Shown: piece after piece, positions 33,455 through 64,000 of the stretch
How positions within the stretch are numbered: position 1 is the first letter of the stretch
Layout: the number at the start of each line of letters is the position of its first letter
NCBI GenBank assembly: GCA_011503125.2
Contig: WWBZ02000001.1
Span: 682,001-746,000, forward strand
Direction: 5' to 3'
DNA from: Botryosphaeria dothidea
Lineage: Eukaryota; Ascomycota; Dothideomycetes; Botryosphaeriales; Botryosphaeriaceae
DNA length: 64,000 nt
Position numbers and translations under genes: made by a program
The notes under the pieces: model-generated
The model's input: the letters and a program-made list of their open reading frames with translations, nothing else
What the model was told of the DNA's origin: nothing
The model's database searches: none

Positions 33455-36400
33455 GCGTGGTCTGTGTGTGATGCAGGTATGATGGGGAAAATTGTGGAGG
33501 ATACGGATGAGTTGCGGACATAGGTCATGACACGATACATCATGTGAAGCGGGAGTTGGGGTGTTTCTTGCTTGGCAAAGTACAGGGGGATATCGCAGCC
33601 GGTGGTTAGCGGTAACGGACTCTAAAAAGGCAACTTTGTGAGGAGTAGAAGTATCTATCCGGATATAAGTGTGTCGCATTCGCACCGACAAAGCCATCCG
33701 GACGAATACTTCCTAGTAGTGTAAAGTCGATCTTTTTCTAATCCGTTGTGGGAATCTCGCATTTAACTCTAACCGTCCGCTATAATAACCCCCAGTATGC
33801 TGAAGCGCAAATATCAGATCTGAAGTACAGAATGGAGCCTTGTCCTTGTGGCGTTGCGAACACTATCTTTCCCACATGCGGTGTTTGGTGTGCCCGGAAT
33901 CTGGGAGTTTGAGATCCCTGCTTTTGCCTTCTCGAGGCAGCTTCGCGGAAAGGGTGTGCTGACGATGGTCAGCAATGCCGGTCGGCGCCACTCGTTGGCG
34001 CCACAATTTATGCGTGAGCGCCGCCTCTCGCCTGTTTAAAATAATGCTATCAATACATCCTTTGATTCCCATTATCTTTGAGAATTCAAAAATACTGCCT
34101 TGTGTAGAGGTGCTGCTCAGGGATGACGCTGATGTGCGTTCTCTTTGGTCAGCCCTCTCTGCTTCAAAGATTCTACACAGAGGAAGTATATGGGACTAGA
34201 TGTTAAAGTGAACGCAGGTGTACTACCCTCAACCTCTGTTCAAGGATCGTCCTGGTAAACTAGATCCTTGTAATGAGGCGCAAGGCAACGAGCTGAATCC
34301 ACGGACTGGTTTGCCTAATACTGATGTCGAGCTTTCTTACTTCCTTCTCTCCTTCCGTCACGGACCCGAGGTCGAAGTGCCTGAGGAATAGTCGAAGATG
34401 TAGTAGTGGTCTCTCATGCTTCTTGTGTGTAGTGAGCAAATTACACGCTCTTTAGGGGGCCGCTGTGAAATTTCGTACGATTTTGAGCTGATTCAGAGTT
34501 CGCACACCTCTTCTCACTTCAGGGGCGCGTTATCTCTTAAACTTCCGGAAGGCTCGATATCTGTCAAGCCCACTCAAAATCACACACTTGACCACATCTT
34601 CCTCAAATTTTTGCCTTTTCCTCATCGAATACGAATGCGACACTGCTTAGCTTTACGCCAAGGATTGAATGACCCGAGCCGGTGAACTATTAAGGCATAT
34701 CCTGGATGACATGTTTGTTGAGAACTGATAGATAGATACCAGAAATCGACGGTTGCCTATGTGTTCCAAGCTGACCCTAACGTGGTTTCCTGCCTTCAGT
34801 TCTGCTAGTCTCGAGGCATGTTGGATGTCTCGCATCTATGAAAGATAAGAACAGGCACTCGTAGTCTGCCTTGTCGACAGTTTAGACTTGGTATTTTGAT
34901 GACCGCCCGCTGCATCAGATGCTCTATCATGTGGGCGGTAAGATAGTGGCTGTGTTCCAAGAATCGAAAGAGTGGTAGGTTGGGCTTGAATATTGCAAAA
35001 ATCTTGCGAGGCCATCGAACTGCCACGAAGGAGAGGATACCGGTCAGTCTGTTTGGGGTACGGCTGTTGGGAAAAGAATAATGTCAGCCTCCAGCACAGA
35101 CGTATATGAAGAATTCGCAAGTCTCTCGTTAGCACTTTTTGACCATCTTACGATCGAACTGGAGTTTTCCTTTTGTATCTCTAACACACGACATCGATGC
35201 CTCCAGCTTCAGAAGACCGTGAACTCAACGATGCGAATAAGAGGCCACAAAGGTTCACGCGCACTTATACCAGAAACGTGGCTCAAGGCCAGGCATTCCA
35301 GTGGAACGGAAACAGATGAGCATCATATCCCATTCAAGAAGAGAGGCATACGATCCTTTGCTCACATCTTGCATAGGAATATCAACTTGCATATTCACTT
35401 TTTGATTGACTGCCGATCCCTTTTTCGATGGTTCTCCACGCTCTAGAATCCTTTTCGAGAATAACGCCAGCAGATATAAGGCGCCAGAGCAAATACTACA
35501 GTGATCGACTGAGACGGCAAAACTTCAATATGGGCATGGTGCTGCAACCTACCCGAACAATAAATGCGACGCATCTTCAGTTTGTGTAGCGGGGGAGATG
35601 TACACTTTACCTTGCTGGGATGGCTTACGTTGCACAGACGGGCGTCTGGCGGGATTGTAATGTCCGGAAGATGGATCTTGCGCGCCTGGCCTTGCGTGCA
35701 ACTCAGGGACGGAGCACGGCATTTTCTTTTCTCGTTGCAGGACCCCGAACTCGGCGGCAGCCTCAACGACGGTGTCTTCGACAACAGCAAGTGCAACAAC
35801 TTCCATGCTTACAGCAGAATAGAGAGCCGCGAGATAGTTAATGAAGATGCTGAGATTCTGTATACGCAATTCGGGAGTTTATGAATTTTAAATCCTAGAA
35901 TCCAGTCATATAATTCGTAGTCTGGCATGTACTATTCGTGATTAATGAACGAGTATCTACGTTGCTGGGAGATGTCTGCTACAGAAACTCATCCATGAAG
36001 CCGCCTATAACAATATCGAACACTTTATCCGTATTCCTGCCGGTACCAAGATTAGAAAAAAAGTTGGATAAGGATAAGCCCACGATATTCAGTACGGAGT
36101 AGGATATCGCGGCATTCTGGAATGAAGCTAAAATGGAACAAGCAAGACTCCTATGGCTTCTTCTGCTCTAAGAAGAGCTCGTTTATACTCAATTTGTTCT
36201 TGAAGTGGTTAAATGCATCTAATTACTTGATTCAGCTCATTTTCCAATATTGGGCTAAATAATATTGGACCCAAAAACCAGTCTGCATGGCGAATTATGT
36301 AAAAAAAAAAGTTGTAACTGCCAATTCAGAGCCTGAGGATAGGTATCAATGATTCGAGGTTGACGAGCTATATACGTTTGCAAAAAGCTGTATTCTTCCT

Positions 36401-37296: not shown

Positions 37297-38411
37297 TCAA
37301 TGCGCCTTTGTGTATGCCGGCCTCCGAGCGAAGAAGATGGCCGCGAACTCCGCATCCAATATATCGCCATTGACTTGTTTGGATTGGTTTCTGGCTTCGT
37401 TACTATTCCAATGGCACCTTTTGAAAGTCTCGTCGGCAGCTGGCTTCTTCCCAACGTTTCCGTTGATTTGCAAAGCCTCGTCGCAGACCATGTTGTCTGA
37501 CCACGACCGAATTGGTGGCGGTGGCTCGTGCACCAAGGTATCTTCCGAGATGGTGTCCTCCGCCAGGGTGCTGTATCTGCTGTCGCTCTCGGCATCGCGG
37601 GAATGGGGGCGCTCGATGAGGACGGCTAAGTCTAAAAGGCTATCGGAGCATCTGTCAGTGTTCGGGGCGGGAGAGCAGTTGTCCCCTGGCTGTTCGTTTG
37701 GTTTCTTCTGCATCGCTCGCGCTCCGAGAATAACGAGCTGCAATACTTTTAGTTTGGCTTTACAGTTTCGCGAGCGTCATATACCTGATTGCTGTCTCTG
37801 TTTTCCTTGTGCATCTTTTTGCAGGTCCGAATTGAACAGAGATGTTTGTGGAAGAAGCAAGGGTCACTCCTGATTCGAAATCCCTCTTTTGCTATTTCGG
37901 AGCAATCGCTCAATGATCTTTCGAGTTTTCCAACCTGGCCTTGTAGCTGAGGGATTCCTTCTCCGACATTCCTGTCGATGCGACTTATAAAGGCTCCGTA
38001 AGTGCCGAGAATGCACAGGGTAAGGCAGCTTTTATCTCTCTCGAGGTCAGCAAAGCCTTTCAGGATTGCCTCTTCTGCCTTGTGCCACTGGAAGGCTTTT
38101 AGGCACCTTCTCCACTTCTTTGAAATATCTCCGACACACCCTTCCTCCAGTGCTCCCGAAATAAACTCGGTTGTCTTCAAGAGAGCTCGAATATGGGCTG
38201 TAACAATTTCGGTTCGTAGTACCTCTTCTAAAGATTGAACGAGCTTCGCTATCTGTATGATTTGATCGATCTGGACCTTGTATTGACTGTACCGTTCTTC
38301 TGAATGCTCAACATTGCGGTAGAGCTGATAAAGAGTGATAACGAGTGTGGACGTGTACTGGAAAAGTTGTGACGCGCTAGCGAGTCCACCGAGAACTTCC
38401 AAACCGGACAT
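37297..38411 (-). CDS. Helical N-terminal domain protein with two HRAM-like amyloid motifs (cassette 1, effector-like)
   Basis: Two exons (38411-37785, 37737-37297) encode 355 aa. Start MSGLEVLGG is chosen by match to its paralogue at 41900-42889. Residues 1 to about 200 are helical, of the kind found at the N-terminus of fungal STAND and SesA/HeLo-like cell-death proteins (SQLFQYTSTLVITLYQLY, then KAEEAILKGFADLERDKS). The intron falls at the same place as in the paralogue, before LxxLGARA. A disordered acidic linker leads to two C-terminal motifs, EALQINGNV (297-304) and NEARNQSKQVNGDI (322-335), whose QxNG cores are 31 residues apart, followed by AAIFF. By analogy with HET-S, the motifs would form stacked beta-arches and the N-terminal domain would be the executor. 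That is inference: the domain is not an obvious HeLo by eye. Confidence 0.8.
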
Positions 38412-39441
38412 GGTCTCCTCAGTATTCGGAGAGGGCCGCAATGGAGACAATGTACATTGTGTAGTAGATCAGCTGGGTGGCGGCTCAGCGGTTTTGTTCT
38501 TGTGAACTCGACGAATGAGGATTGCAGACCCCAAGCCTCAAAGCCGTGAGTCTCTCCAGCGCGTGAACCCCTGAGCAGTTCAGTTCTTGAATGGGGCGTC
38601 TTTGCGTCAAAGAGGCAAGAAGGCAGCAAAGACATGGTGCTTCACGGCTTCACGGCATCGTGAGTAAGGATGTGGATGTGTGCTGGCAAGCGGGGTTGTA
38701 CAGTCTTGATTGGTTCGTGCGGATCCCAACTGCAAATGGATTCGTCGCCCTGCAAGATACCGAAAAGACGAGAGCTGAGCATACAATGCATGTAATGTGG
38801 ACCCAGAACAATCGAATTTTCCCACTCATGGGTAGTGGTGCGTCGGAGTCGTTTCGCCAATGTTGCACGGTGGTACGGTAGTACCGCCTCCTCGTTTAAG
38901 GCATTCTTCCGACGGCGAGGCTGAATTTCAGCCTAATGGAGCACCATAGAATGATTCATATATCGGCTTCGGCAATTAATTTCATTGCTTCAGACGGGCA
39001 GCTGCATCTCACCTTGAAGATCTCCTTGGAGAGCGCGATCCCTCTTCGATATTTGGTGATCTTGACCAATCTTCCAGCGTATGACCAGCGTGTAATGCGT
39101 TCACTCGGACATAGAACCTGCCATGGAGCTGACTGGTAGTGGCATAAGGAAGCATGCGTCCTCCGATGACCGCATACTGCCGTGCGTATCTGTAGCCAAT
39201 TAGCGCAGTATCCAATTCTTCTGTCTCGTGAACAAGCCATGGATGAGAGGAATTATTGTGCAAGTGTAGCGAGCCCTCACTGCCGTTAATGTAGGCCTTT
39301 TGCCGAGAACGGCAGGGTTTGAATTGAGGCTCAAAAAGAGAATGGGGGATAAAAGCCGGCAGCAATGAGCATGTTGTCTGCTGTTGTCTATACTGTGTTT
39401 CCACCAGACTCATTCTTAACGTGCCGAAGAAAACGGAAACC
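38412..39441. promoter_or_regulatory. Divergent promoter region of cassette 1
   Basis: A 1.03 kb interval between outward-facing starts of the helical-domain gene and the two-motif gene. Small ORFs here lack support. Confidence 0.45.
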
Positions 39442-40062
39442 ATGTACGAGAAAGGGACTTCCACCATTAGTCCGTTCGTTCCACCGCTTCAAGATGACGC
39501 CTCTCAGGCCCTCCAGGTTAAATTTTGCAAAGGGACGCAGGAAAAAGACCCAACTCACCTCTTGAGCTCAACTGAGCGGGACTCCAGAATTTCTGAGACA
39601 GATTCCAGCCCCACCGCGGAGTACCGTTACACCAGCGACAACCGCAAGGAGAAGTTCAGCGTGGATAAAAATGAAGCAACCGAGACGGCAAATCAAGCCA
39701 ATGGACCAATTCTTAAAGAGCCGCCATCAATCGCTAGTGAATGGAAGGTGGTTGGGAACACAGCCCGCGGCCAGTCTTCCCAGGCGAATTCGTATATTGT
39801 GATGCCCGGAGCCGATTTCTTCAACAAGAGAGGTGCTCCTGAGCAGACTTCAAGTACACCAAAGGACCAAAAACTATCAACAGAAGAAAGCCGTGGAGCA
39901 GGAAATCTCTCTGGTCATGATGAAACCCAACGAAAAAACCAACGGCGCCAGGATTCCGGCGGAAGAACCCAGGATGCAGAGCCTGGAAGACAGGGGAAAC
40001 GGCGAGGAAGAAGGAAACCTCGCAAACAAAATGGCGACAGTCTACAAGAAGAAAAGAAGTGA
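39442..40062 (+). CDS. Two-motif HRAM-like protein with basic C-terminus (cassette 1)
   Basis: An intronless ORF of 206 aa from ATG 39442 (an ATG at 39366 in another frame could be part of an unrecognised first exon). The N-terminal 70 residues are disordered. Two motif copies follow: KNEATETANQANGPI (76-90) and GNTARGQSSQANSYI (105-119), then GADFF. The cores deviate from the paralogues (NGP, NSY instead of NG[DN]) and are 29 residues apart, so this copy may be drifting or tuned to a different partner. The rest is rich in Arg, Lys, Gln and Glu, with a GKRRGRRKPRK patch near the end that could act as a nuclear or membrane-binding signal. There is no other domain. Its counterpart in cassette 2 is at 44258-44692. 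The role could be a modulator or a shuttle of the amyloid fold. Confidence 0.7.
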   Translation: MYEKGTSTISPFVPPLQDDASQALQVKFCKGTQEKDPTHLLSSTERDSRISETDSSPTAEYRYTSDNRKEKFSVDKNEATETANQANGPILKEPPSIASEWKVVGNTARGQSSQANSYIVMPGADFFNKRGAPEQTSSTPKDQKLSTEESRGAGNLSGHDETQRKNQRRQDSGGRTQDAEPGRQGKRRGRRKPRKQNGDSLQEEKK

Positions 40063-40315
40063 TGCTTGAATTGAATTCTTACGGACAATCGAGGGCTAGG
40101 CAAGGATGCTGCAATGAGAATGGGTGTGAGGAAAAAGAGAAAGGAAAAAAATCCGTTTCGGCTTGCTGTAGCCTTGCCTGTCTAAAGGATCGTACGTTCA
40201 TTTCTGGCAGGGCATCAACATAACGGCCTCAGTACACGGCGGGGTATCTCTCAAAACCTGTATCTCCAAATGATTATGCTACTTCGAATATTCATCACCA
40301 TGCTCTTTCCAATGA

Positions 40316-40951
40316 TCATCTACGTGCAGCCCACCCAAAGACCATAGCAACGATTATTGGGGCACCCATGATTGCGAGCGCGGTGTTCTTGTAAGGGCAC
40401 TGGTCGAAACGGTCCCAGAGCACGCCGAAGGAGCCGTCATCGAAGTCTGGTTGACTGTCCATGTCTTCATCCATTGCGTCCTTCACGTTGACTGGCCGCT
40501 CGTCAAGAGATGCGTATCCGTCCGCATCCTCGATAGGAGGAGTATGGTTCTCGTGAGGCGGTTGAAGCTGACGACAGAAGAATGTAGCTCCTGGTTGGTA
40601 CGGAGGGAGTGACGTGGCGGGATAGATGTTGATTTCCACATTCCAGCAGTGGTAATCCCTCAGCCCGCGAGTGGTGAGTAGTGCAGCCCTGGGACAAACG
40701 CTTTATCGTTAGTGATCAGGCTACAGCCGGTCTGACCTCTAGTTGGCTCAAGTCTCAAAGCGAGGCAGATGTAGGAGAAGAGGGGAAGCGGCGGCCCACC
40801 TGTCGTAGATGTTCCCGTTCAACTGGTTCGCCTGTCCTCGTGCTTCATTTTGTATTGCGTCCTGCTGAGCGCCATAACAGGAAGACATGCGGCTTGAGGT
40901 AGATGCGGGGTTGTGTGATACAGAATTCGGACTACTCAAAGACGTGTCCAT
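40316..40951 (-). CDS. One-motif HRAM-like protein with C-terminal membrane anchor (cassette 1)
   Basis: Two exons (40951-40800, 40688-40316) encode 174 aa. The intron is GTGGGC...TCCCAG, 111 nt. A single motif lies near the N-terminus: IQNEARGQANQLNGNIYD (residues 33-50). It is followed by YHCWNVEINIY (63-73), which resembles HHDNKHLDITFF in the cassette 2 counterpart. After an acidic middle (DAMDEDMDSQPDFDD) comes a hydrophobic segment, TALAIMGAPIIVAMVFGW (153-170), four residues before the end, so this is probably a tail-anchored protein with the motif in the cytosol. In HET-s type systems a single N-terminal motif belongs to the NLR that seeds the effector. Here the same position is occupied in a membrane protein. 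Its 3' end faces the two-motif gene, 253 bp away. Confidence 0.75.
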
Positions 40952-41899
40952 GTACAAGGAGGTGGCGAGGGAGTGCAGCGCATCTGAAGAGTCATATTTG
41001 GCCGCCTAGCGTGTATGAAAAAACCACACGTGTACTAGTCTCATATGACCCAGGTGGGAAAGGACTTTTGTTGTAAAGGGTGCGTGGCGCAGCTATTATC
41101 AGATGGGCGGTTGGACTATGTTTCTTCCCGATGTGTCATAGTGATCGGCAACTCTTTCTCCATAACCCCAATACGTCCCAGTGGCCGGCATTCAACCTAG
41201 CTTCCCATGACTCAAAAACTGCAGGATCACATGAACATACAATTATTAAGCCCCGGGCTATCCTTTTGGTGATTCTAGTATTAAATAGTAGTGAGGAGGT
41301 CCTTAAAATGACCGAAAATTACACGGTCTGCGAAAGCAATAACCGCGTGGCACTCCCACCTGCCCAAGGCTAATATACGATTGTGAGAGGATTAAAATAC
41401 ATGTTAAAGATCGTGGTCAATGCGAAATAAGGTCTACGAAGGTCAGCTGCGCCCCATTCGAGAGAACGGATGTTTTGAAGGAAAGTCCGGTTCATTGGTG
41501 CAGGAGTGAGGCACACCGCAAGACTGGAAGGCGGACCCAATGGAAGACACCAACCGGATCATCTCGGATTCACAGCCTCATATGAATAGTGATGCTGCGA
41601 TGCGTTGTTCAGTCGGCTCGAAAATCCTTGCGTTGCGGATCAGCGATTCTGCGGAGCTGAGATATACGCTTAGCACTCACAATTGTTTGCTTGATGGCCA
41701 AGGCTCTGGTACGAACCTCAAAGGTAATTAAATTTTCAGCAGGCTTCTTTTGACATGAAGCAGTGACTGATATGATATACAATCGTGATATATATATACA
41801 TGCAAGACCGAGACCAACTTTTGCCGCTTAAGTAAGACTTTTGAGATAACAGCCAACCGCCCACATGAACGGCGGGACCGTACAAACATCCGACGCCAA
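40952..41899. other. Spacer between the two cassettes
   Basis: No gene supported. A stretch at 41478-41494 (GAAGGAAAGTCCGGTTC) resembles the conserved region I of RNase P RNA, with a CCGG-containing block about 70 nt on (see findings). Not enough to call an RNA gene. Confidence 0.4.
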
Positions 41900-42889
41900 T
41901 CAGCTCCGTAAGAAGAAGGCGGACGCAGCCTTTGGGTCCAAGACGTCTCCGTTCACTTGTCGACTTTGTCCACTGGCCTTGTTGTTAACCCAGTGCGAAG
42001 AGCCGAGACGATTTGCTCTGGATACCCGGGCCCCGATATCGCCGTTCACTTGTCCCGAGTCACCGGATGATGAGTTTCCCATGTATACGCGCTTCTCGGT
42101 TGCTCCGTTCAGTGGTAAGCTGACTGAGGTCTGCTCTGTGGGCGAACAGTCGTATAATGTTGGAGACACGGGCGAGTAGTCGTCTTCAAGAGCGCGCGCT
42201 CCTATAAGTGCGAGCTGACATGTAAGTCAGTACAATATGCGGAGAGTTGGGATAGGATAGGACGCGTTGGAAGGTTTTTCTCATACCTTTGGATCCACTG
42301 TGCCAGGCTCATCCGTCGTGGTCAGCCCAGAGAGGTTGCGGCTGAGTTTTCGGCTCTCCTGCGTGATGCTAGAGCAGCTCCGAAGGTTGCTTTCGATTCT
42401 TTCGAATTGTTCCAGGAGTTCGGGAATGCCACTCTCCAGCCTTGCGTCAATCCGTTGGATCAAGCCACCAAAATTACCAAGGATGGCAAGGATGAGAGTG
42501 CTTTTTTGGCGTTCGAGATCGTCGAATCCTTTCAGAACAGTGGCTTCTGCTTTGGATAATTGAATTGCCTTCGCGCGGTTCTTCCACTTCTTGAACGGAT
42601 TGGATGGGTCGCTCACGAAGTGTTTCCTCAGTGTCGTACCGATGGAATCGGCAGTCTTCAGAAGCGACTCTACCAGATAAAACAAGGCCTCGGACTGGAT
42701 TCCCTCGGTGTTGTTGAGGGACTCGACGATTTTTCGGAGTTCCTCGACTTGGTTTCGGTGCTCTCTGAAACGCTCAGCTGACCGATCGAGGTTCTTCGAC
42801 AGATCGCGGAGACAAACTATCAGCCTTGCGGAGTATTGACCAAGCTGCGTAATGCTGGCGATAGCCCCCACGACCTCAAGACCGGACAT
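41900..42889 (-). CDS. Helical N-terminal domain protein with two HRAM-like amyloid motifs (cassette 2, effector-like)
   Basis: Two exons (42889-42287, 42214-41900) encode 305 aa. It starts MSGLEVVGAIASITQLGQYS and its first 200 residues align along their whole length with the cassette 1 protein, for example KAEATVLKGFDDLERQKS. The intron position is conserved. The C-terminal region has two motifs, GNSSSGDSGQVNGDI (247-261) and NNKASGQSRQVNGDV (278-292), with cores 31 residues apart exactly as in the paralogue, then ASAFF. The second motif is the best match in the window to the HRAM consensus. The TCAGCCTTGCGG 12-mer shared with 4088 and 36675 lies inside this coding region. Predicted: an effector switched on when its C-terminus is templated into an amyloid fold. 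The cell-death activity is inference. Confidence 0.82.
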
Positions 42890-44257
42890 AGCCTCCCCTG
42901 TAGATATGAGAGGAAGGTCATGGTAAAACCAAGGAGTTTTGCGAAGGAGTGGCGTGCCAGGAGTGGTTATGGCGTCCAGTGGCGAGCTGATCCAGTAAGC
43001 GCCCGTGGCAAGCTTTCACCGCATTGCGAGGGTGCATTTGTACAACCGTATACAGTGGAAGGGCCAGCACGGACTTCCATCCACGGCAGTTCAACCTGCA
43101 AGGGATATTTGGAAAGTATCGCGGCAGAATGAAGATCTGCGGGCGAGCCCGCTTCTTACTTGACGGGGGTGGCCTCTTAACAGTTAAACCACCGGTTAAC
43201 GCTTAACCATGCGGGGCGACGATGCGAACGCCCGATCCTGTGTGACCGAATTCAAACAGTTCATCATGCCTTGCAGATACAGCCTTGTATCGATTGGCTC
43301 CAATAGCGGGCGACCAAAAGGATTGGTAATCTGGATGCATGCTAAGCGACGAGGGCGGGATGGCGAAGATTGGAAGGATGATAATTGAGGCAGCGATGCG
43401 CATGTTTGCCTTGCGCTGTCAGGCAGATAACAACGAGTGGGTCTGACGGCAGGGATCCGACGCACGGACGGATGTGATGGCCATGATTCGTGCAGCAGAG
43501 CCTCTTTTGCTACACTCCGCCTGCTCCCGCGACCTCCATCTGGCGCTGTCCTCGGACATGCCCCGCACGATACTCGACCAGCTTGCCAGAATGGCCACGG
43601 CCCCCTCTTTCGACATGCTATCACCGCCGAGTCTTGAGCAAGCCGAAGACGCTGTGCAACGTTCACGCGCTCGCCTCTCCAGTTGCCGTTCTGGATAAGC
43701 CTGGAAACTGGCCATCGAGGCGGTCAAGAGCAAGGAATATATGTGCCCATGGACGCGTCTCTTGCATGCAGGCGCTGGATTTCCCAGGGCCAGCTTTGCC
43801 GACACTGCCTTTCACTGGAACGAGCTCGAGATCCCTCCGGATTCTCGTCCCTGCCGCTCGACCCACGTAGCCATCTGGATGCATCCCTGCTGTTGGACTG
43901 TCACGTTGCATCAGATGGCGTAGAGCTGTATGGTTACCCCCGGGCTGAGCTGGGTGGAATCAGTTCTTGCAACCCAATTAAAACATGAGAGGACCACCAT
44001 ATGGTGGTCAGCACATGTATGTGTTGGAGGCGACTCGTGCACTATCACCTGTCTCGCGATGAGGCTCTTCCGCTTGACGAAAGATAAATAGGTGCCTTTG
44101 TTCATCGTACGTTGCATGAGCCTTCAAGGCCCAGAGCCAGATTCGCCTTGCTTCATACTCGGGACTGAACAAGACCTCGCCGCGGAGCTCGTGAAGTATT
44201 TATCTTTCTGGCCCCTTTTTGAGCAAGGCTAACTTTTTGACAAGTTTTCACCTTGTC
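42890..44257. promoter_or_regulatory. Divergent promoter region of cassette 2
   Basis: A 1.37 kb interval between outward-facing starts. Overlapping ORFs on both strands at 43.2-43.9 kb reflect composition, with no family feature. Confidence 0.45.
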
Positions 44258-44692
44258 ATGACGACTCATTCGGGAACTGAAACTCTGCCAAAGCCACCTG
44301 CGGAAGATAAAACAGAGGTCAAACCGAGTGACGACATTTGGAAAGCCGCCCGAGAGAGACACATGTCGAAAGTCAAAACGATACATGATCTTGAGCATGA
44401 CCAGAAGCCACCAATGGATGGAAACTCTCCTCAAAACGGAACCCAAGCTCCAAACCGGATCTACAATCGCAACGTAGTAGAGCAAAACGGGGGCCAAATC
44501 AACGGTGATGTGGACGAACCCGAGAAATCACAGCAAATCCCCCAGGAGCAGAGGGAATACAACGAAAACAAGGCTACAGGCAATGGCAGGCAGGTGAATG
44601 GCAATGCGTATGGAGCTACTGCGAGGGGCTTCTTCCCTACACCCAATACTGGTGCAGCGGACAAGAAAGCCCCGCCAGAGCGGAAGGTTTGA
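44258..44692 (+). CDS. Two-motif HRAM-like protein, motif-only type (cassette 2)
   Basis: An intronless ORF of 144 aa from ATG 44258. The N-terminal 65 residues are polar and lysine/proline-rich with no domain. Two motifs follow: NVVEQNGGQINGDVDEP (72-88) and NENKATGNGRQVNGNAYG (102-119), cores 32 residues apart, the second ending ATARGFF like the copies in the effector-like proteins. The short C-terminus is polar. A protein made of little more than two amyloid motifs could act as a free prion-forming element, a carrier of the signal or a brake that caps fibres. It occupies the same place in cassette 2 as the gene at 39442-40062 does in cassette 1, and converges on the membrane-protein gene 245 bp away. 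Confidence 0.75.
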   Translation: MTTHSGTETLPKPPAEDKTEVKPSDDIWKAARERHMSKVKTIHDLEHDQKPPMDGNSPQNGTQAPNRIYNRNVVEQNGGQINGDVDEPEKSQQIPQEQREYNENKATGNGRQVNGNAYGATARGFFPTPNTGAADKKAPPERKV

Positions 44693-44937
44693 GGCCGTTT
44701 GGGATCGACATCGAGACGATCCATCATGATTTTGTCAGCTTGGTTTTTGGTACTGCGAATCAAATTGAGTCTATCCCTCTTAAGAAATTTGTTGTTCCGC
44801 CGCAAATTGCGGCCAAGCGCAACGTGATCCCACCGTGAAGTCCGATCTTCAAACAAAATTACAAGAAGCCCTCGCCATACAACCGTCGAATTACAAGTAT
44901 TACAAGGCAATCCATCCAGCCAGCCAGCCGTCTTCAC

Positions 44938-45673
44938 TCATGTGTTGCTGCCCGACTCCAGGCGGGCGGGCCCACCGGGGTGTCGCGCATGCGAATCCGC
45001 ACATGAAAGCGGGGCATTGCGGCTCTCGAGAGTGGGACTGGGAGTCGAGAGCGACGTGGTGGCGATCGCCGACGACGGGCGGGCGGCCCACGCCGAGCTC
45101 GCCTGCTCGATGCCGCGCTTCAGCCTGGTCTCGGCGGTGAGGTAGAGCGGCAGGACGACGGCCAGGATGACGGCGATGACGAGCAGGCCGACGATGACGC
45201 TCCAGCTGCGCGGGTTGCGGCAGTAGCAGCCCTTGACGCTGGCCCAGGTGGTGGCGCGCCGCGGCGGGCCCGGGTGGGGGTCTGCGACCGAGAATCGCGA
45301 TATGGGAGGTCCTGCCGGGGGAGGATGGCGTGGAGGAGGGTTCTCCTCGTCGGTGGGGACGGAGGTGCGATGCTCGCTGTAGGCGCTGCGGCTGCGGGAC
45401 CGCGAGCGCGAGGAGTCGAAGGAGATGAGGGAGCGCCTGTGAGTGCTGTGGTCGAAGAACGTGATGTCCAGGTGCTTATTGTCATGGTGGCTAGAGCAAC
45501 CTTCAGTCAAATTCCCTGCACTAGCTTAGGAGATCCCGCAGATTGTCCTACCTGCTGTCGTTGCATGTACCGTTGATCTGCCGCGAAGTATCGTGCGCCT
45601 GATTTCCTGTGTAATTCTCCTGACCGTGGACCGGGTTCGCCGAATCTCGCTGCGAGGCTTGCATTTTGTACAT
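44938..45673 (-). CDS. One-motif HRAM-like single-pass membrane protein (cassette 2)
   Basis: Two exons (45673-45571, 45515-44938) encode 226 aa. The 55-nt intron GTACAT...GTGCAG was chosen because it alone keeps frame. The downstream ORF by itself has no ATG, so the small first exon is needed and it carries most of the motif. The single motif is NQAHDTSRQINGNLTE (24-39), completed across the splice. HHDNKHLDITFF (44-55) recalls the post-motif segment of the cassette 1 counterpart. Next come an SR-repeat patch (RSRSRSRS, 71-78) and a Pro-rich stretch. The transmembrane segment SVIVGLLVIAVILAVVLPLYL is at 140-160, with a basic flank (TRLKRG) and a Ser/Pro-rich tail. I infer a membrane protein that presents an amyloid template to the cytosol, possibly responding to a signal at its other side. 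Confidence 0.75.
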
Positions 45674-55242: not shown

Positions 55243-57860
55243 TTACAGCTCTCCATCCCCCACCATCCCCACAACAGCCTCAATAGCCGCAGCAACTGCC
55301 GTACCATTTCCGCCATCCACCGCCCCCTCCTCTCCCTTCTCCCTCTCTTTCATGATGGCGTGATACTGCGAATTGCCCGTTAGCAAAGAACAATCAGATC
55401 CCCAGGCATCTCGAGATCTCATCAGGGGGAAAAAGGAATGCAAAAAACTCACCCTGAACCCAAAATTACAACACAGCGCCACCACGAGCCCCAAACACAC
55501 CACCATCGGCCCCAGAATATTATCAAAATCCTTGCCGCTCCTTGCCTGGATCAGGCTGCTCCGGTACATGTATATCGCGTACCCCCACACGCCCGCAAAC
55601 ACCGCGACGATCGTGTACACGACGGCCAGCGTGCGGGCGACGTTGTTGTCCTCGCCAGCAGCATTGAACAAGCCCAAACTCAGCGACGCCAGCAAGACGG
55701 CGACGTGCTGCCACTTGATAAACGTGCGCTGGTTCGCCAGCCAGACCTTGGCCTCGACGCGCACGGGGCCTTGGTCCTTGATCCAGCGGGGGCCCGGGTC
55801 GCGGACGCCGGGCGGCAGGTTCTGCGCCTGCTGCTGGCGCGCGCGGTGCCGCTGCGCGTACTTGGAGTAGGAGAACGACGGGAAGAGGCCGCGCACGCCC
55901 GACATGGTCGTCATGTTGCGCTCGCCCGAGGGGTCGCCGTCGGCCTGGAGGCCGTCGTCGTCCTCTTCCTCTTCCTCGGCCGTCTCGGCGATGCCGCTCT
56001 GCTTGGCCGACGCGGTCTGCGCGGCTAGCGAGGCCCGGCGGGCGTCCTCGACGGTGGCCCTGCCGGGCGACTGGGCCGACTTTGCCAGGGCGGCGCCCGA
56101 GGGCGAGCCGACGGGCGAGGCGATCATCGAGTGGCGGAAGGCCGAGGGGCTCTGGCGCGTGCCGAACAGGCTGCCCACGGCGACCTCGTCCTCGGCCGCT
56201 TTGGCCTTGCGCTCCTGCTCCTCCTCGAAGGCCTTGTGCGGGTCGCGGCGGATGTCCGTCTCGAGTTCGCTGAGCCAGAATGGGAAGGTGTTGACGTGGT
56301 CCTCGAAGAGCTGAGCCACGCCGTGCACGAATTTCGAGAAGCGAGGGGCCTCCTTGACCAGGTGCGAGTTCATCAGGTCCTCGACCCATTCGTACTGCTT
56401 CTTGCCCTTGATCTTGATCTCGAGCAGCGCAAAGGGGAAACGAGAGATTTCACCCTTGCGAATCTCGTTGAAGGGGTACTCCATGCCGGCACTATCAATG
56501 TCGCTCCTGTGCCAGTCATCGGGATCACGGCAGGGCCGGTCAACATCGATGGCATCCTCGCGGATGAGGGCGAGGTCCGTATCAAGGGAAATGCGAACCC
56601 TATCATCGCCAGGGATCTGGAAAGCGGTGCGGGTATAATTCGCCCGAAGAACGGGTTGCAGGTCCTGCTCACGAACGAACGATTGGATAGCCTCGACGCT
56701 CTTCTGAAGCTCCTGCACCTTCGGAGAGTCCTTGCCCACGGTCCTCTTCAGCTTGTCGATGCTCTTCTCCATCTTGTATTCTCCGCGGATGAAGGGCTCA
56801 ATGTACTTCTCCTTGATGGGGAAGCGCAGTTCCTCACTAGAGTCTCCCTCCTTGATTGTCTTCTTTTCCAACACAATCTCCGGCTTCTCCGACAGCTGGC
56901 CGTACCAGCGTAACCGTAACGATGAGGCGTTTGGCTCGTGCCCGACCTTGCTTGTATAGAGAGGGAACTTATAGTTATCGAAGTATATCGAGGTGATGGT
57001 CGGGTCACGCTGAGTGCCCTCGGCGACCTTGGAGGTTTGGGGGTTGTAGACGAGTACGGGCAGGCGGCGTAGGATAACAGTCTTGACCTCGAGCAAGTTC
57101 TCCGGGTGAACCCAGACTGCAGGAAGTTAGCAGGCATCAACTGTACATAATTGAGAACGAACATACACTTAAACGAGGTGAAATGCTCGCCACCGGTGGT
57201 GCCCTCGGAGAAGGACATTTCCTTCTTGTCCTTGCCCTCAAGGTTCTGGCGCACGAACGAGTACATGGCCGACAGGCGGATGAGCAAGGGCGAGTAATCC
57301 TCCTTGTTGAAGGGCAGGGCAGCCAGGCGCACCTGGAGCAGCGGGCGTACACGGTAGCTGTGGCCGCGCTTGCGGTCGTGCTTCTTGGCGGCCTTGAGGA
57401 AGCCGGTGTAGTTGATGCGGCTGTAGCGCTCCAGCTCACTGACCTCCTTGGTGATGATGTCCAGCTCCTTCAGCACCTCTCTCAGCACCTTCTTGCGTTC
57501 CTCCTCATTGGGCTTCTTCTGCGAGGCTTGCTGGCTGCTGCCGGCGCCCTCACCCTCCTCGTTCGTGGCGCCGGGGACCAAGGCCAAGGGTTCCAGCTTT
57601 TTCTCGCATTCGGAGGTGCGGTCGCGCAGGTCCTGGTTCTTGTCGCTCTGGAAGGCGTTCACCTTCTCGAGCTGGACGTTGACCAGCTCCTCGACGAAGG
57701 CACCCTCGTCCTCGTCGGTCCAGCGGTCGTCGGCGTCCTCCTCACTGCCGCCCTGGTCACTGCCACCCTCGCGAAGCAGCTGCTTGAGCTTGTCGTAGTC
57801 GATGTACTTGTCGCGCCATGGCTGGTACACGGACCGTTGCAGCGTGCGACCAAAGCGCAT
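55243..57860 (-). CDS. VTC4: VTC complex polyphosphate polymerase, Vtc4-like
   Basis: Three exons (57860-57167, 57116-55453, 55365-55243) encode 826 aa. Start MRFGRTLQRSVYQPWRDKY is the canonical SPX opening; six residues of upstream open frame are not needed. SPX domain 1 to about 190, with NYTGFLKAAKKHDRK, the inositol-pyrophosphate-binding lysine cluster. The VTC tunnel domain follows: KFWVHPENLLEVKT across the first intron, SIYFDNY (274-280), RLRWYG (R299, R301), VLEKKT (K316, K317) and FPIKEK (K333). These basic residues are those that bind ATP and polyphosphate in Vtc4 and are lost in Vtc2/3, which favours the catalytic subunit. After an acidic disordered insert come three membrane helices (WQHVAVLLASLSLGLF, TLAVVYTIVAVFAGVWGY, MVVCLGLVVALCCNFGF). 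It makes polyphosphate from ATP and moves it into the vacuole. Confidence 0.93.
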
Positions 57861-59034
57861 TCTGGGCGGAGGAAGCAAGCGGACGAGGAACCGGGGACAG
57901 GTTCCTACGTCAATTGATCAACGGGCGTACAAAGGGCTGCTCTCGGCGGGATTTGGGATTGCAGAGAAAGAATGGAGCAGAGCCGCAGCCAAGTAGTCGG
58001 GACGCAGAGGAAGTTTGTTGTTGGCGTATCGAAGGTTGCGCCGGCGTGGTGAGTTGAGCGAGTGAGCTGTCGGAGAAGCTCCCACGTGCGATCAGAGCTC
58101 CGTTTTTTGCCCAGCAGCCCCGCCCAGCAACCGCAACCGCTAGCCTGACTAGTTCCAACACGCTCTGTTATTCCTCTCAGTAACTATGCCGGCACGCATT
58201 GACTGCTGCATTCTCCGATCTTTGGCTGGTTTTTCCCGTCCTCGCATCGGTTGATGCTGCGCCGCAATTGACAAGAGAGCGCAAACGCTTGCCTCGAACG
58301 CATATGCGCCATCCGCCGGGATCCACACTCGGGGAGCCATGGCATGTGGGGAACAACGGCAGAGCACGTTGCAAGTCGATCCGAATGCGCCTTCTTCACC
58401 GTTGGCGACAAGAAATCCTGAGGGCTCCGGCCGTCGTATATATTCTTGACGCCGACAATTGGCGTCATCTGATGCCGGCTGTGCTACCACCCTTGACATG
58501 AAGCCTGACACGTCACGACCTCAATCTATCCAATGCCGTGACTGTTCGCTTTGCATATGCTTGGCTGCTACATGACCCCAAGCACTACCGAATGCCAATG
58601 GAAAATTCGTCATTAAACAGCGAATACACCAGTATCTTGAATGCTAAACGTTGGAACGCTGGGAATGGGCTTTCCCAAAACCCTTTGGTAACCAATCTGA
58701 TCAACCAGTTCCACAACCTCTTGTTTACATAATCTGACAGAATAATACATCTCCAATCGCTTTCCCTCTTTGCTTTGTACCCCATTATGCTCAATGAAGC
58801 CTGTGCCAATAACGTGAATGCTGAACCCAGCCTGATGTCCCAGCGATGTCGAAAACACTCGTACGCCTTACCTTTCTCTACACCGTCAATCCATGAATGT
58901 TCGCAAGTCGCACCAAAAACTTCCGCACGTTTACCACCTCATGAAATGGGAAACTCCCCTTCTCGCCGGTCGAAGAACCCTTAACACACCGCATCCAGGT
59001 CAGACAAAGGAGATTCGTGGCCATGTGTCCTCGC
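57861..59034. other. Intergenic
   Basis: Promoter of VTC4 and 3' flank of the histidine kinase. No further gene seen. Confidence 0.5.
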
Positions 59035-59543
59035 TCAATCATCCCCCTCAACCTCCACCGCCTCAACCATCGGCCCCTTCGAGTCCACCAGCCGCTCAAT
59101 ACTCGAAATCAACTCCGCAACCCTAAACGGCTTCGACACGACATCATCCATCCCCGCCTCCATCGCTGTATTAACCTGCTCCACCCGCGCATTCGCCGTG
59201 ATCGCAATGACATTCACCCTCTCCGCGAACCTGCCTTCGCGCTCCAACTTCCTGATCTCGCGCACGCACGTTAGGCCGTCCATGACGGGCATCTCGATGT
59301 CCATTAGCACGACCGTTAGATTCTGCGCGTTGGCGGAGTTGCCACTCCAGTGCCGCGTTGTGCGCAGGAAGTCCAGCGCCTCGGCGCCGTGGTTAGCCAC
59401 GTAGACGGCGTGGCCGAGTTTGACGAGCCCTTTGCTCATGACCGACTGGTTGACCTTGTTATCCTCGACTATCAGGCAGTCGAAGACGCGGGGCGAGCAG
59501 GGGACCGAAGTGAGAGGGGACTGCGTCGATAAGGTGGTGTTCG

Positions 59544-59574
<31 letters not shown>

Positions 59575-62500
59575 CGTCGTCGTCGTTGGTGGTGATGGGC
59601 GCGTCTGTAGGCGGGTGTACATGCTTGGCGCATGTAGATCTGTGCGGGACAAGGGCGGTTGTTCAAACGTTTGCCCGATATTTTGAAGTTGTTGCAGCGC
59701 CGTTAACTCAGGAGTGTGCTTTGAGGGACGGCTTGGGAGCTCGAGCGTTTGTGGCACTCGGCGGCGCGTCTTGACATAAAAGGCAAATGTCGAGCCTTTC
59801 CCGGACTCAGAGTCGACACCTATCGAACCTCCTTGGAGTTCCGTCAGCTCGCGGCAGATGAAGAGGCCTAATCCGGATCCTCCGTAGTGAACCATCGTCC
59901 GCGGAGCCTGCGAGAAACGCATGAAAAGGAGCTTCTTTTCGTCGACGGTAAGTCCACAGCCCGTGTCTGAAACTGAAAAATGCAAGTACAGTTCTTCACC
60001 GTCACCCCATTCTTTGCGATGAGTCAAGTCCTCGCGGTTCATCCGAAAATCGAGGTACTGAATGCCTTCTGCACTCACAGTTGGTTTCTCAGTCGTTGCT
60101 CCGAGACTTATCTTAATTTCACGTCTGTCTTGGTATTGCGTGAACTTAATCGAGTTCGTGACCAAATTTATAAGGATCTGTGTTAGCCTGGAGGAGTCTA
60201 AGAGCACCCAATCAATTTCCAATCTCTTGAACGAATCCCGAATGATGGTCGTTTGTGTGATACCGGCGGCGTTGTACTCGCCAGCGAACATTTTGCATAG
60301 GTCATTGATGAGTGCCACCGGTTGCACCTCAACTGGATTGATAGAGAAAAGGCCGGAGTCGAGTTTACTAATGGTTAAGATGTCATCCACTGAAAGTTGT
60401 TAGACAGGAAGCCAATAGAGCGAATGAAGCAGATCTAATACCTATTCTCTTCTGGTGCTGAGCACAATGCAGCACCGTGTGTGCAGCATCGATGCTGCTC
60501 TCAATAGTCGACTCGAACTCTTTTGAGTCACGGTCCAGATCCTTTAAAGAGGAGATGATATCGTCCGCTGGTACAAATTAGCATGGGCGCTGAGAAAGGC
60601 TGGCCGTGAACAGCCACCGGTAAACTCACCTGAGATCATGATCGCGCTCAGCGGATTGCGCATCTCATGTGATGTGACATCAATGAAATTCTCTTGTTGC
60701 CTCTTCGCCTCGATGGCGTCTTCCATTTTGCGTTTCTGGACGCCCTCCGCCCATTTGATCGTCGTGATGTCGGTAACGGACCCAACAATTGATCGGAGCC
60801 ACCCATCGTCTGTGACGACAGAGAAGGCATGCTGGAGAATCAAAGTCAGCTCTTAAAGATCTCCTTCCCTCTTCATTCGTACTACCCGAATCGTTAAAAT
60901 TGGGTCACTTACGCAAAGAATCCACTTATATTGCAAATTCTCTTCCACAGGCAAATCCCCCTCGCTCCCTCTTGGGATCCTGAATTCGAAGCTCTGTTCC
61001 GTCTTCTCCTCCATGAGCTTCTTCCAACACTGGTGCACCGTTGCAATGTCTTCTGCATGCATTTTCTGCCAGAGAGGACTCTTCCAGCTCGGGATATTTT
61101 CCCGCGAATCTCCCATGAGCTCGAACCATCTTTCGTTGCGGTACCGATAGCTGCCGTCCATGTTGTCGGGTGTGAATTCAAGGATGAAGATTCCGATCGG
61201 CACAGCATCCGCAAAATGCTGGAGCTGGAGTTCGCTTTGTTCGAGCTCGCGCGTCCGGATCTGCAATTGTTCTTCGATCTTCTGCTGGTCAAATGCTGCT
61301 TGCTCGGCGATTGTGCGTCCACGTTTGGTCTCTTCCTCGAGTAGCAGGACTGATGCGAGGGACGTAGTGATTTGACGATTGAGCAGCCGAATAAACCTTC
61401 TGTATTCTTCGTCATAAGGCCGATGAGAGTTGAGTCCAAGGATCATGAACCCCAGAGCGGTATCGCGTGTTGAGTCGTGGCCGTTCGTTGGACGAAGAGC
61501 GCAGACGACAACGGAATCACAAGGCTCATTCCATGCTCCTGATTCTATCCCATGCACCAAGTTTTCCGCTAATGAAGAATCCTTGGAGCTTAGAAAGAGA
61601 GGCTCATCGGATTCTGCGGCGGCACGGAAGTATCGCATGTAGCAATCCCTACCCAGAGCTACATCAAGCCGCGTTGAAATGGCTGGATGTCCTTCTGGCA
61701 CGCCAATGCTACCTTCCAGTTCATAGCGTCGCGATGATGATACATCTGGGCTCCCAGGATGGCTCTCGCTCGCCAGGTCACTTACAGAATACACGACTGC
61801 AAAGGCAATGTCTTGCGGGTTCGCTTTGAGGCCGTCCAGTATTTGCTCCCAGAACAACTTGAGGTTCATCGCAGAAGAAAGCCTCTCGCTAAGCGCGAGA
61901 ATGGTGGATACTCTCCGTTCGGTGATCATCTGTTTTGTCGTCTCGAACACAACCTCGTGCCATCCCATAATCTTGTCATTCTCCAGGATGGGCGTGAAGC
62001 TGAAAGAGCAATACATCTCCTCCCTCTCACCAGCTCCTCGATCCACAAACAGAAGCATATTTTCGACCATGGCGCCACAGCCCGACTCCTCGCAGCTTCG
62101 CAAAAACGGTTCGAAGTCATTCCAAGCCTCTTTAAAACAGATCCACGGTGGAGCTCCTAGCATGCTCGGATGCTTAGCTCCAGCGATAGGGACATAGGCC
62201 TCGTTGTAAATCATGTTCAAGTCTTGGCCCCAGAAAACGATAGCGGGATTAGGGCAGGCATTTACGAGGTTACACATGAACTTGAGGGTCGAACTCCATG
62301 ATTCAAGAGGACCGAGCGCAGTTTTTGACCAATCCTTATCGCGGATGAGTTGCACATGGGGCGCGAGGTTAGGCGGAGGGGGGTTGCAGGTCCAGTCATA
62401 TCGAACGTTGACCGGTAAAGAGCTCTGCCGGTAGTATGTACTGGTTCCTGGGGTCAGAGGGACAGCGCTCACTTGTGGTGGTAAGCTGCGTCTCCTTTCA

Positions 62501-63384
62501 AACTTTAAAGAATCCTTCCTTGCTTTCCCTGCCTCGATTTTTGTCTGCCCATCTTCGTGCTCTTCCCTAACTCTCCTCGGTTCCTTTGTCATAGCTTTTG
62601 CCTTCACTTCAGGAGGCCTAGCCTCGACCTTCGTAACTCCCATCTCTTCATTTTCGCCGTCCAGACCTTCCAAGCGTTCCTCAAGTGGCTCTCCTTCCGG
62701 TGGACCCACAGCCTTGGTGGAAAAATAAATGTTTGAATAGGACGCGGTCAAATGATCAGGGTGCCGATAAGCCTCTCCGTAGAGCACTTTCCAGCGTCTT
62801 CGGACCGTAGTAGCTGCCCACGTCATTCCTCCATACACAAGGGTGTATTTCTTTTTCACATATGTCCTCCGCGACAGGTCCAGGATCCATGCCCTGAATA
62901 CAGGATAGGTGACCCAGGCAGGTTGGCCGTACGGGCTGCTAGGCGCATTCCCTTCGATTATCTCGAGCAAATTCCCTGCATCTTGCAGCGCCTGGTTGTA
63001 GTATATGATTGGCAGCGATTGTGGGAGGCGATCCGAGGACGCGGGGACGGATGATGACGTCTTGGGCGGGGTGGATTTGGCGAGGAGATCGACGACGAAG
63101 GTAGGCCTGGCGTCGAGGTCGAGGAAGTCGATGAGAGGCACGCCGTTGAACAAGTCGTCCTCGCGCGACATTTCGGGCTCCGACTCAGGGCCTTGGTGCA
63201 GGGCGCCGTGGTGGAGGGTAGGCTGCGAGGTAGGCCGGCCGCCGAAGATGGACCACGCAGGCTCGCTCGGGAGCCGGTCGCTCGCGGTTGTAGGGCGGGA
63301 GGATTCGCTGCCATTGCTGCTGCCGTTGCTGTGCATGCGGCCGGCGCTGAGACCGCCACCTTTGCTGGCGATTGACGCTAGCAT
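59035..63384 (-). CDS. Hybrid histidine kinase with PAS-type sensor region
   Basis: Five exon segments would be normal for this class; four are supported here (63384-60913, 60831-60630, 60567-60442, 60389-59035), encoding 1384 aa. The N-terminus is disordered, then PLIDFLDLDARPTFVVDL begins a sensor region. It continues with PAS/GAF-like parts (NPAIVFWGQDLNMIYNEAY; MGWHEVVFETT; FADAVPIGIFILEF) and a coiled coil (QIRTRELEQSELQ). Kinase boxes: H-box FIDVTSHEMRNPLSAI (H879), N-box LINLVTNSIKF, G1 SDTGCGL and G2 GGSGLGL. The receiver has VEDNKVNQ, phospho-acceptor D1297 in VLMDIEMPVMDG, and the SKPF lysine. No membrane segment, so a cytosolic or nuclear sensor feeding a phosphorelay to Ypd1 and then Ssk1/Skn7. 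A polythreonine run separates kinase and receiver. Confidence 0.94.
59538..59590. repeat. GTT/GTC trinucleotide microsatellite in coding sequence
   Basis: About 16 GTT/GTC units on the plus strand, read as a run of 15 threonines in the linker between kinase and receiver of the hybrid histidine kinase. Length is likely to vary between strains without shifting the frame. Confidence 0.9.
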
Positions 63385-64000
63385 GGCGTCTCGAGGCGCG
63401 CGTCTGTGCTGGCGACAATGGCTCGCTGCTTGCTACCCCAGGACGGGTCTGTGCCCTGGATGCTAAGGCGGTGGGTAATCCGGCGGTGTGAAGAGTGATC
63501 GTCGGAGAGTAGGTTCAGATAGAGTTCGGCGGTTGCACAAAGAGCCAGGCGAAGGCAGGGCGCGATGTTGGACGGAGTGCCTGATATGGCAACAGGCGTG
63601 ACAGGCGGTTTCGCCGCATGCGCGGCGGCGGCGTCAGAGCGTGGGCAGAAATTTTTGGAATGCCAGGAGCCGGCGACGCTCAGCTGCTGGGACGGTCGGG
63701 GCCAGCGTGATTGAGGGAAAGGTACGATTCCGCGCATGGCAATTCTAGACAATGCGATTACTGAGTAAGTGCCCGCTAATCGGTCCAGATCGCCGATGCT
63801 CGTGGAGCTCCATCGAAGGCGACCAGGAATTGGCAACGAGTCGCGGCCGTGCGGTGTGGAGCGCGGCCGGAGGCGCGTGGCACATGGCGATAGCAGGCAC
63901 AGGCCGCAACGGGGGGAAGTGAATCCAAGTCGCATTCCGTCTCACAGCACACCAGCCCGTGTTGTGGCAACCGCGCCAGCAACAGATCGTCGCATTTGTT
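63385..64000. other. Promoter side of the histidine kinase gene, window edge
   Basis: GC-rich upstream region. A minus-strand ORF runs through it but has no domain or codon support. Confidence 0.45.

Follow-up and report, generated by a model that had tools for sequence, protein, structure and literature searches.

In the parts of the fungal amyloid literature surveyed here (PMC4518210, PMC9815663, PMC5485727, PMC12261475, PMC7889193, PMC12881547, PMC7885112, PMC8280340 and PMC9531809), the partner gene that triggers the effector encodes a NOD-like receptor (NLR). For 98 of 155 effectors with HET-s-related amyloid motifs (HRAMs), a single repeat of the motif is found on an adjacent NLR (PMC4518210), and non-adjacent NLR-effector pairs are suspected (PMC9815663). 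Within this limited survey we found no NLR-free case of fungal amyloid signalling in print. Here we describe a gene cluster in a 64,000-nucleotide stretch of the Botryosphaeria dothidea genome (contig WWBZ02000001.1, positions 682,001 to 746,000 of the forward strand), which is referred to below as the window. The cluster contains six genes in two cassettes, A (g1–g3) and B (g4–g6). Each cassette consists of an effector with two repeats, a two-motif protein and a one-motif membrane protein (Table 1). With a confidence slightly better than even, we read the cluster as two diverged copies, of old origin, of a unit that serves regulated cell death in the fungus by amyloid signalling, and whose single-repeat trigger would be a membrane-anchored protein and not an NLR. 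The sequence supports the effector domain, the repeat architecture, the membrane helices, an old and conserved pair of effectors and the lack of a clear repeat in 40 NLR upstream regions.

The core of the motif is Q-[VILA]-N-[GS]. The initial annotation had placed it at residues 299 and 330 of g1, 85 and 114 of g2, 43 of g3, 256 and 287 of g4, 80 and 112 of g5 and 32 of g6. We rebuilt the six gene models from the window DNA, and all ten cores were reproduced in the spliced models. One GT..AG intron each is present in g1 (47 bp), g4 (72 bp), g3 (111 bp) and g6 (55 bp). The g4 intron lies immediately before an L-x-x-x-GARA segment that is also present in g1, and the g6 intron interrupts the codon of the conserved Gly of the repeat. 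The order and strands of the genes are the same in both sets, as had been noticed before: effector on the minus strand, two-motif gene on the plus strand, one-motif gene on the minus strand. The spacing also matches, with convergent gaps, calculated from the coordinates, of 253 bp between g2 and g3 and 245 bp between g5 and g6.

In a six-frame search of the window, the pattern N-x7-Q-[VILA]-N-[GS], chosen after these motifs had been seen, hit exactly the ten known places and no others. Using nine repeats from other species, we built a profile: two repeats each came from BKCO1_4700049 and BKCO1_4700050 of Diplodia corticola and from LTHEOB_6084 of Lasiodiplodia theobromae, and three from PAC_18636 of Phialocephala subalpina. 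It was searched against the 1,510 six-frame open reading frames (ORFs) of the window, with 5 × 1,510 shuffled ORFs and the reversed ORFs as controls. The repeats of g1 and g4 scored 21.7 bits or more (Table 1), that of g3 22.0 bits (E-value over the 1,510 ORFs 7.5e-6) and that of g6 17.5 bits (2e-4). The second repeat of g5 scored 15.7 bits and the first just 4.2, and g2 was weak, with 9.2 and 6.2 bits. The best control scores were 7.4 bits for shuffled ORFs, 6.6 for reversed ORFs and 5.4 for an unrelated ORF of the window. A profile of six Botryosphaeriaceae repeats gave 35.7 and 29.7 bits for g1, 34.8 and 19.2 for g4, 26.0 for g3, 18.1 for g6 and 11.7 for g5. With this profile g2 (8.6 and 7.6 bits) is indistinct from the background, for which an unrelated ORF of the window scored 8.5 bits and the best shuffle 7.8. 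The observation of the motif is accurate and exceeds chance. In the whole genome (51.7 Mb, 78 contigs) the strict core occurs 65 times, compared to 43 times for a control pattern, and two strict cores spaced by 93–96 bp are found only in g1, g4 and g5. All 59 other genomic core sites score at most 9.7 bits and show little match outside the core.

The effectors were then compared with the HeLo-like family PF17111. Direct Pfam matches were below the cut-off and were obtained for two of 12 helical proteins, g4 (E 0.025) and its relative P0012 (E 0.016). A PF17111 search of the own genome gave 20 places, four of them above the family cut-off. From 15 of these places and the N-terminus of the NLR of the window we assembled a test set of 16 same-genome domains; the five excluded loci were one 43-residue frame and four duplicates or hits lacking a start. 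Using hhalign, the profile of 11 effector relatives matched the 16 domains with a probability of 95.7 and an E-value of 1e-8, colinear over residues 5–133, and the reversed control gave 1.2. The relatives P0003, P0009 and P0014 carry the UniRef label 'Fungal N-terminal domain'. The predicted structures of the effector domain are all-helical, and structure searches returned generic bundles only. Because of the profile-profile evidence we accept the domain of g1 and g4 as HeLo-like. The helical-domain effector with two C-terminal motifs, as first described, is thus specified as a predicted HeLo-like protein with two 21-residue repeats.

Named relatives of the effectors come from D. corticola, L. 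theobromae and, at a greater distance, P. subalpina. D. corticola belongs to Botryosphaeriaceae according to its lineage record, and L. theobromae is a member of the same family. In the tree, one group (type B) comprises g4, D. corticola 4700050, P0002, P0012, P0013 and P0004, and is set apart with support 97/99 from the remainder (type A), comprising g1, D. corticola 4700049, L. theobromae 6084, P0010, P0011 and the distant P0014. Since both types are present in the window's species and in Diplodia, this split indicates that the effector duplication is older than the separation of the two. Among the database matches of L. theobromae, LTHEOB_6084 is of type A and no B-type protein was found. 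In D. corticola the A-type BKCO1_4700049 and the B-type BKCO1_4700050 have consecutive locus tags, and P0011 (type A) and P0013 (type B) share the same longest-contig value of 87,110 bases. Therefore, the two effectors have probably been kept side by side in the relatives. A recent duplication was considered and rejected, as a comparison of the DNA gave only short stretches of similarity, of which the longest lie around the codons of the motif. The P. subalpina (Leotiomycetes) protein PAC_18636, P0014 in our set, is a HeLo-like relative with three QxNG repeats separated by loops of 5 and 3 residues, outside the HRAM range of 6–18.

The presumed triggers are g3 and g6. In g3 a hydrophobic segment at the very end of the protein (C-terminal, residues ~154–172, mean hydropathy 2.09, KD19) resembles a tail anchor, and g6 has a single strong central membrane helix (residues ~140–158, KD19 3.08). 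The one-motif membrane partner that had been postulated is thereby recovered in both cassettes, as a protein with one N-terminal repeat and one predicted membrane helix. A Pfam scan recognised no domain in g2 and g5. When g2 was aligned with g5 and g3 with g6 as candidate paralogues, MAFFT identities were 22 percent in scattered columns, with no convincing alignment outside the motif, and the paralogy was not accepted. Consequently, the claim that the whole set was duplicated once stands for g1 and g4; the g2/g5 and g3/g6 pairs have in common only position, strand and motif. In a BLOSUM comparison the repeats of g5 were nearest to those of g4 (47 and 47), compared to 33 and 38 for the matching repeats of g1.

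The alternative that survives best is an ordinary NLR-effector system, in which g1 and g4 are typical HeLo-like/HRAM-type effectors and are switched on by a distant NLR with a diverged single repeat, the other genes being accessory. We consider it unlikely, though a serious contender. It draws on the 98 of 155 HRAM effectors that adjoin a one-repeat NLR (PMC4518210) and on the suspected non-adjacent pairs (PMC9815663). The genome offers candidates as well, with at least 142 PF24883 NACHT, at least 49 PF05729 and at least 4 NB-ARC places (these are places, not genes). The NACHT repertoire is large against the few NB-ARC places. Among the 30 long ORFs scanned in the window, the only NLR recognised is a NACHT (NPHP3_N) gene at 2002–3270 (minus strand) and upstream, 34 kb from g1. 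It has a helical N-terminal domain of its own and no repeat motif, and no NLR was recognised beside the g1–g6 cluster. We also scanned the ~2.1 kb preceding 40 of the 142 PF24883 places, namely those with the highest scores. It turned out that the best score was 8.0 bits, compared to 6.1 for the reversed control, with no clear repeat. The 20 PF17111 loci gave no repeat either, the best score being 5.3 bits against 6.0 for the reversed sequences. Since the core sites, the NACHT upstream regions and the PF17111 loci were scanned without a match, the clear motif is, so far as tested, confined to the cluster. A distant trigger is thus opposed by the motif-free NACHT gene of the window, by the 40 upstream regions and 59 core sites, none above 9.7 bits, and by the single-repeat proteins that the cluster itself contains.

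Whether the repeats are amyloid motifs at all bears on the second alternative, according to which they are a short non-amyloid binding motif for a common partner, and the genes encode co-regulated interacting proteins without templating. We tallied 20 repeats (11 from the window and 9 from other species) and fixed the numbering by the glycine, which is position 19. Position 5 is W/Y in 16 of them and hydrophobic in 19, position 10 is A/V/S in all (A/V in 17), and position 17 is V/I/L/A/W in all (V/I in 15). Position 19 is G in 19 repeats, position 20 is N/D/E in 18 and position 21 is hydrophobic in 19; position 15, for which the HRAM definition has Arg/Lys, carries one of these in 7. The core of the motif is polar: position 8 is N in 17 repeats (N/Q/G overall), and positions 16 and 18 are Q and N in every repeat, with no hydrophobic residue at any of the three. 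As in HRAMs, repeats of the window type have Gly19 and a polar position 20, and g1, g4, P0003, P0008 and P0009 end in a C-terminal double repeat of ~21 residues with loops of 9–10 residues. The inter-repeat loop is 8–11 residues long in all seven two-repeat proteins, and FF follows the second repeat in the same five Botryosphaeriaceae effectors and in g2 and g5. Hydrophobic pairing of positions 17 and 21 is reported for HRAMs (PMC4518210). HRAM5 has Q16 and HRAM4 has Q18 (PMC4518210); therefore, the window motif extends a trend already present in HRAMs. The scanned proteins gave no match to PF11558, a model that matches 38 of 155 HRAM proteins (PMC4518210). The PP/RHIM core G-(I,V)-Q-(I,V)-G (NxGxQxGxN in PP) is absent, since Asn18 stands between (V,I)17 and Gly19 and position 14 is S/A/G. 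No sequence match to HET-s or other amyloid chains was found in the PDB set.

The Asn/Gln-rich core and the missing PF11558 and PDB-set matches speak for a binding motif. The repeat length, pairing, loop, glycine arch, aromatic tail and 17/21 hydrophobics, together with the HeLo-like domain, fit the HRAM plan, and we regard a mere binding motif as improbable. Because Asn8, Gln16 and Asn18 are polar where HRAMs are mostly hydrophobic, the motif is kept out of HRAM1–5 and is called HRAM-like with a polar core, a classification by sequence. The HET-s-like character proposed in the initial annotation thus holds for length, loop, Gly19, tail, 17/21 pairing and the adjoining HeLo-like domain, and does not extend to PF11558 or to positions 8, 16 and 18.

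A seventh motif lies 2 kb from g1, at 35254–35316 on the plus strand. Its repeat RTYTRNVAQGQAFQWNGNR scores 17.6 bits with the other-species profile and 14.6 with the Botryosphaeriaceae profile, and a protein search found no second copy in the own genome. It was not accepted as a complete gene, as neither a donor site nor a downstream exon was recognised; it is either a gene for a short peptide or what is left of a gene of the one-motif type. Close to it, at ~35540–35830 (plus strand), a stretch with 47 percent GC contains a Cys-rich and then Ser/Thr-rich frame with a stop and looks like a decayed surface-protein gene. On another contig (C78:1358305–1358472; L005, L007) there is a decayed helical domain of the g1 type with in-frame stops, and no motif was found in the 9.9 kb fetched there. 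A third alternative is a polymorphic het-like incompatibility locus whose copies and seventh motif are under turnover; g2 and g5 would then maintain the effector in soluble form, as suppressors or decoys. The old diverged copies, the decayed g1-like copy, the lone motif and the degenerate repeats of g2 are consistent with it. However, the window's species and D. corticola have each retained both effector copies, and we give this explanation only a small chance.

We also assessed whether the small genes are real. P0007 is a spliced form of g1 with the same splice and differs at 13 of 355 residues. P0001 and P0005 are spliced forms of g4 and g5 and differ at 10 of 305 and 9 of 175 residues, respectively. 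None of these substitutions is at motif positions 5, 8, 10 or 16–20. The longest contigs of P0007, P0001 and P0005 have 4,580, 1,393 and 1,153 bases. P0002, P0004 and P0010–P0013 bear the same source label, come from contigs of at least 17 kb and end near the position of the first intron. Because P0007, P0001 and P0005 are spliced and come from short contigs, unlike these, they appear to be transcript-derived. Since P0005 has an upstream exon, g5 probably starts at 44116, and its model was extended with this exon (the start was earlier placed at 44258). A codon-usage test was trained on the Pfam-supported ORFs of the window and applied to 11 exons, including the seventh motif. The gene frame was the best sense frame in 10 of the 11 and the best of six in 9, g2 among the latter; the exceptions were exon 1 of g3 by both measures and exon 1 of g1 in the best-of-six comparison only. 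Protein searches of the own genome covered g3, g4, g5, g6 and the seventh motif (g1 was recovered by g4); those of the protein database covered only the effectors and g5. A last alternative, in which only the two HeLo-like genes are real and the motifs arose by chance in small spurious ORFs next to them, is favoured by the weak g2, the 4.2 bits of the first g5 repeat and the codon usage of g3 exon 1. It is hardly credible, as g3, g6 and the seventh motif score 17.5–22 bits while no shuffled ORF exceeds 7.4, the gene frame is the preferred sense frame in 10 of 11 exons and g5 has a spliced conserved relative.

Table 1. Coordinates of the cluster genes, their repeats and the seventh motif in the window
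Feature	Position	Strand	Details
g1, cassette A effector	37297..38411	-	intron 37738-37784; HeLo-like domain (predicted) ~residues 1-175 and two C-terminal repeats
g1 repeat r1, core QING, 21 residues	37453..37515	-	26.5 bits, other-species profile
g1 repeat r2, core QVNG, then aromatic FF tail	37360..37422	-	31.8 bits, other-species profile
g2, cassette A two-motif protein	39442..40062	+	degenerate repeats 39649-39711 (QANG) and 39736-39798 (QANS)
g3, cassette A one-motif membrane protein	40316..40951	-	repeat 40808-40870 in N-terminal part; intron 40689-40799
g4, cassette B effector	41900..42889	-	repeats 42035-42097 (21.7 bits) and 41942-42004 (32.7 bits), FF tail; intron 42215-42286
g5, cassette B two-motif protein	44116..44692	+	probable intron 44196-44244; repeats 44450-44512 and 44546-44608; FF after second
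g6, cassette B one-motif membrane protein	44938..45673	-	N-terminal repeat starting 45625; intron 45516-45570
Seventh motif, 40-codon ORF	35197..35319	+	one terminal repeat 35254-35316, core QWNG

Elsewhere in the window, at 55243–57917 and 59035–63432 (both minus strand), a VTC-type gene (SPX, VTC, DUF202) lies near histidine-kinase ATPase and response-regulator ORFs with a weak PAS match.

Several results weigh against the reading of the cluster as an NLR-free amyloid-signalling unit. HRAMs are generally hydrophobic at positions 5, 8, 10, 16 and 18, and here positions 8, 16 and 18 are polar, with no hydrophobic residue in any of the 20 repeats. With single sequences, hhalign gave probabilities of 0.2–53 at most, and most PF17111 places in the test set are below the family cut-off. 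The repeats of g2, g3 and g6 have no clear cassette preference in the BLOSUM comparison, and g5 has no relative in the protein database besides the close P0005 (P0006 is the window's own). As the D. corticola effectors have consecutive tags, no small gene is annotated between them there; it is either absent or missed. The genome scan is blind to degenerate repeats like those of g2 or the first one of g5. Because such repeats are indistinct from noise and 40 of the 142 NACHT places were scanned, a diverged NLR partner may exist.

If the cluster is nevertheless an amyloid-signalling unit, the working model that we consider most likely is as follows. The effectors g1 and g4 would carry a HeLo-like, presumably membrane-attacking domain that is inactive until the two C-terminal repeats fold. 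The triggers g3 and g6 would be single-helix membrane proteins with the N-terminal repeat facing the cytosol. Clustering of g3 or g6 would cause their repeats to stack and to template the double repeats. The small soluble two-repeat proteins g2 and g5 may serve as a relay that spreads or buffers the fold, acting as amplifier, adaptor or decoy. Once converted, the HeLo-like effector would attack membranes. This logic is that of NWD2/HET-S, except that a membrane protein, and not an NLR, would carry the single-repeat seed. Amyloid folding, pore formation, the cytosolic topology, the signalling order and the roles of g2 and g5 are what we infer in this scheme. The initial view of a complete HRAM-like signalling module is borne out as far as the effector domain, the double repeats and the single-repeat partner are concerned; PF11558 and the three polar core positions do not support it, and duplication is shown for g1 and g4 only.

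What is new in this proposal is a layout that is free of an NLR and seeded from a membrane. If it is true, the relay by amyloid would be a separable component of signalling, open to connection with sensors at the cell surface or on organelles. How far the beta-solenoid tolerates buried Asn and Gln could be probed with a polar-core relative of the HET-s motif, and cross-seeding barriers could be tested between the two diverged copies of a single genome.

Compared with the described systems, the cluster is closest to HRAM1–5 (NWD2/HET-S, FNT1/HELLF). It shares with them a HeLo or HeLo-like effector, two 21-residue C-terminal pseudo-repeats, a loop within 6–18 residues, Gly19, an aromatic tail and one repeat on the partner, and its Gln16 recalls HRAM5. 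It differs from them in having Asn8 and Asn18 in place of residues that are generally hydrophobic, a membrane protein as partner instead of an NLR, and an additional soluble two-repeat protein. The sigma (HET-eN/SESA/SESB) and PP (PNT1/HELLP/SBP) clusters likewise consist of three genes with a common motif and include a HeLo-like/SesA effector. However, they combine an NLR with two effectors, one of them a predicted lipase, and have a single-copy motif on the HeLo-type protein, whereas the g1–g6 cluster has neither NLR nor lipase. Other amyloid-like motifs of fungi that do not belong to the canonical HeLo pair are PUASM and the HRAM3-like motif of PNP_UDP systems, but there the effector is enzymatic and the partner is an NLR. 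In Drosophila, PGRP-LC and PGRP-LE seed an amyloid of the adaptor Imd through cryptic RHIMs, and PGRP-LC is a membrane receptor. The proteins are unrelated to those of the cluster, the Imd route leads to NF-kB signalling, and no HeLo-like effector takes part in it. Thus, we tentatively suggest, from sequence comparison and with rather less than even confidence, that the cluster is the first NLR-free fungal amyloid death module, with a membrane-anchored seed, a soluble relay, a HeLo-like executioner and a new polar-core (Asn8/Gln16/Asn18) relative of the HET-s motif, of which Botryosphaeriaceae have kept two copies. In that case, PGRP-LC/Imd and other receptor-adaptor amyloids would have a counterpart in fungi.

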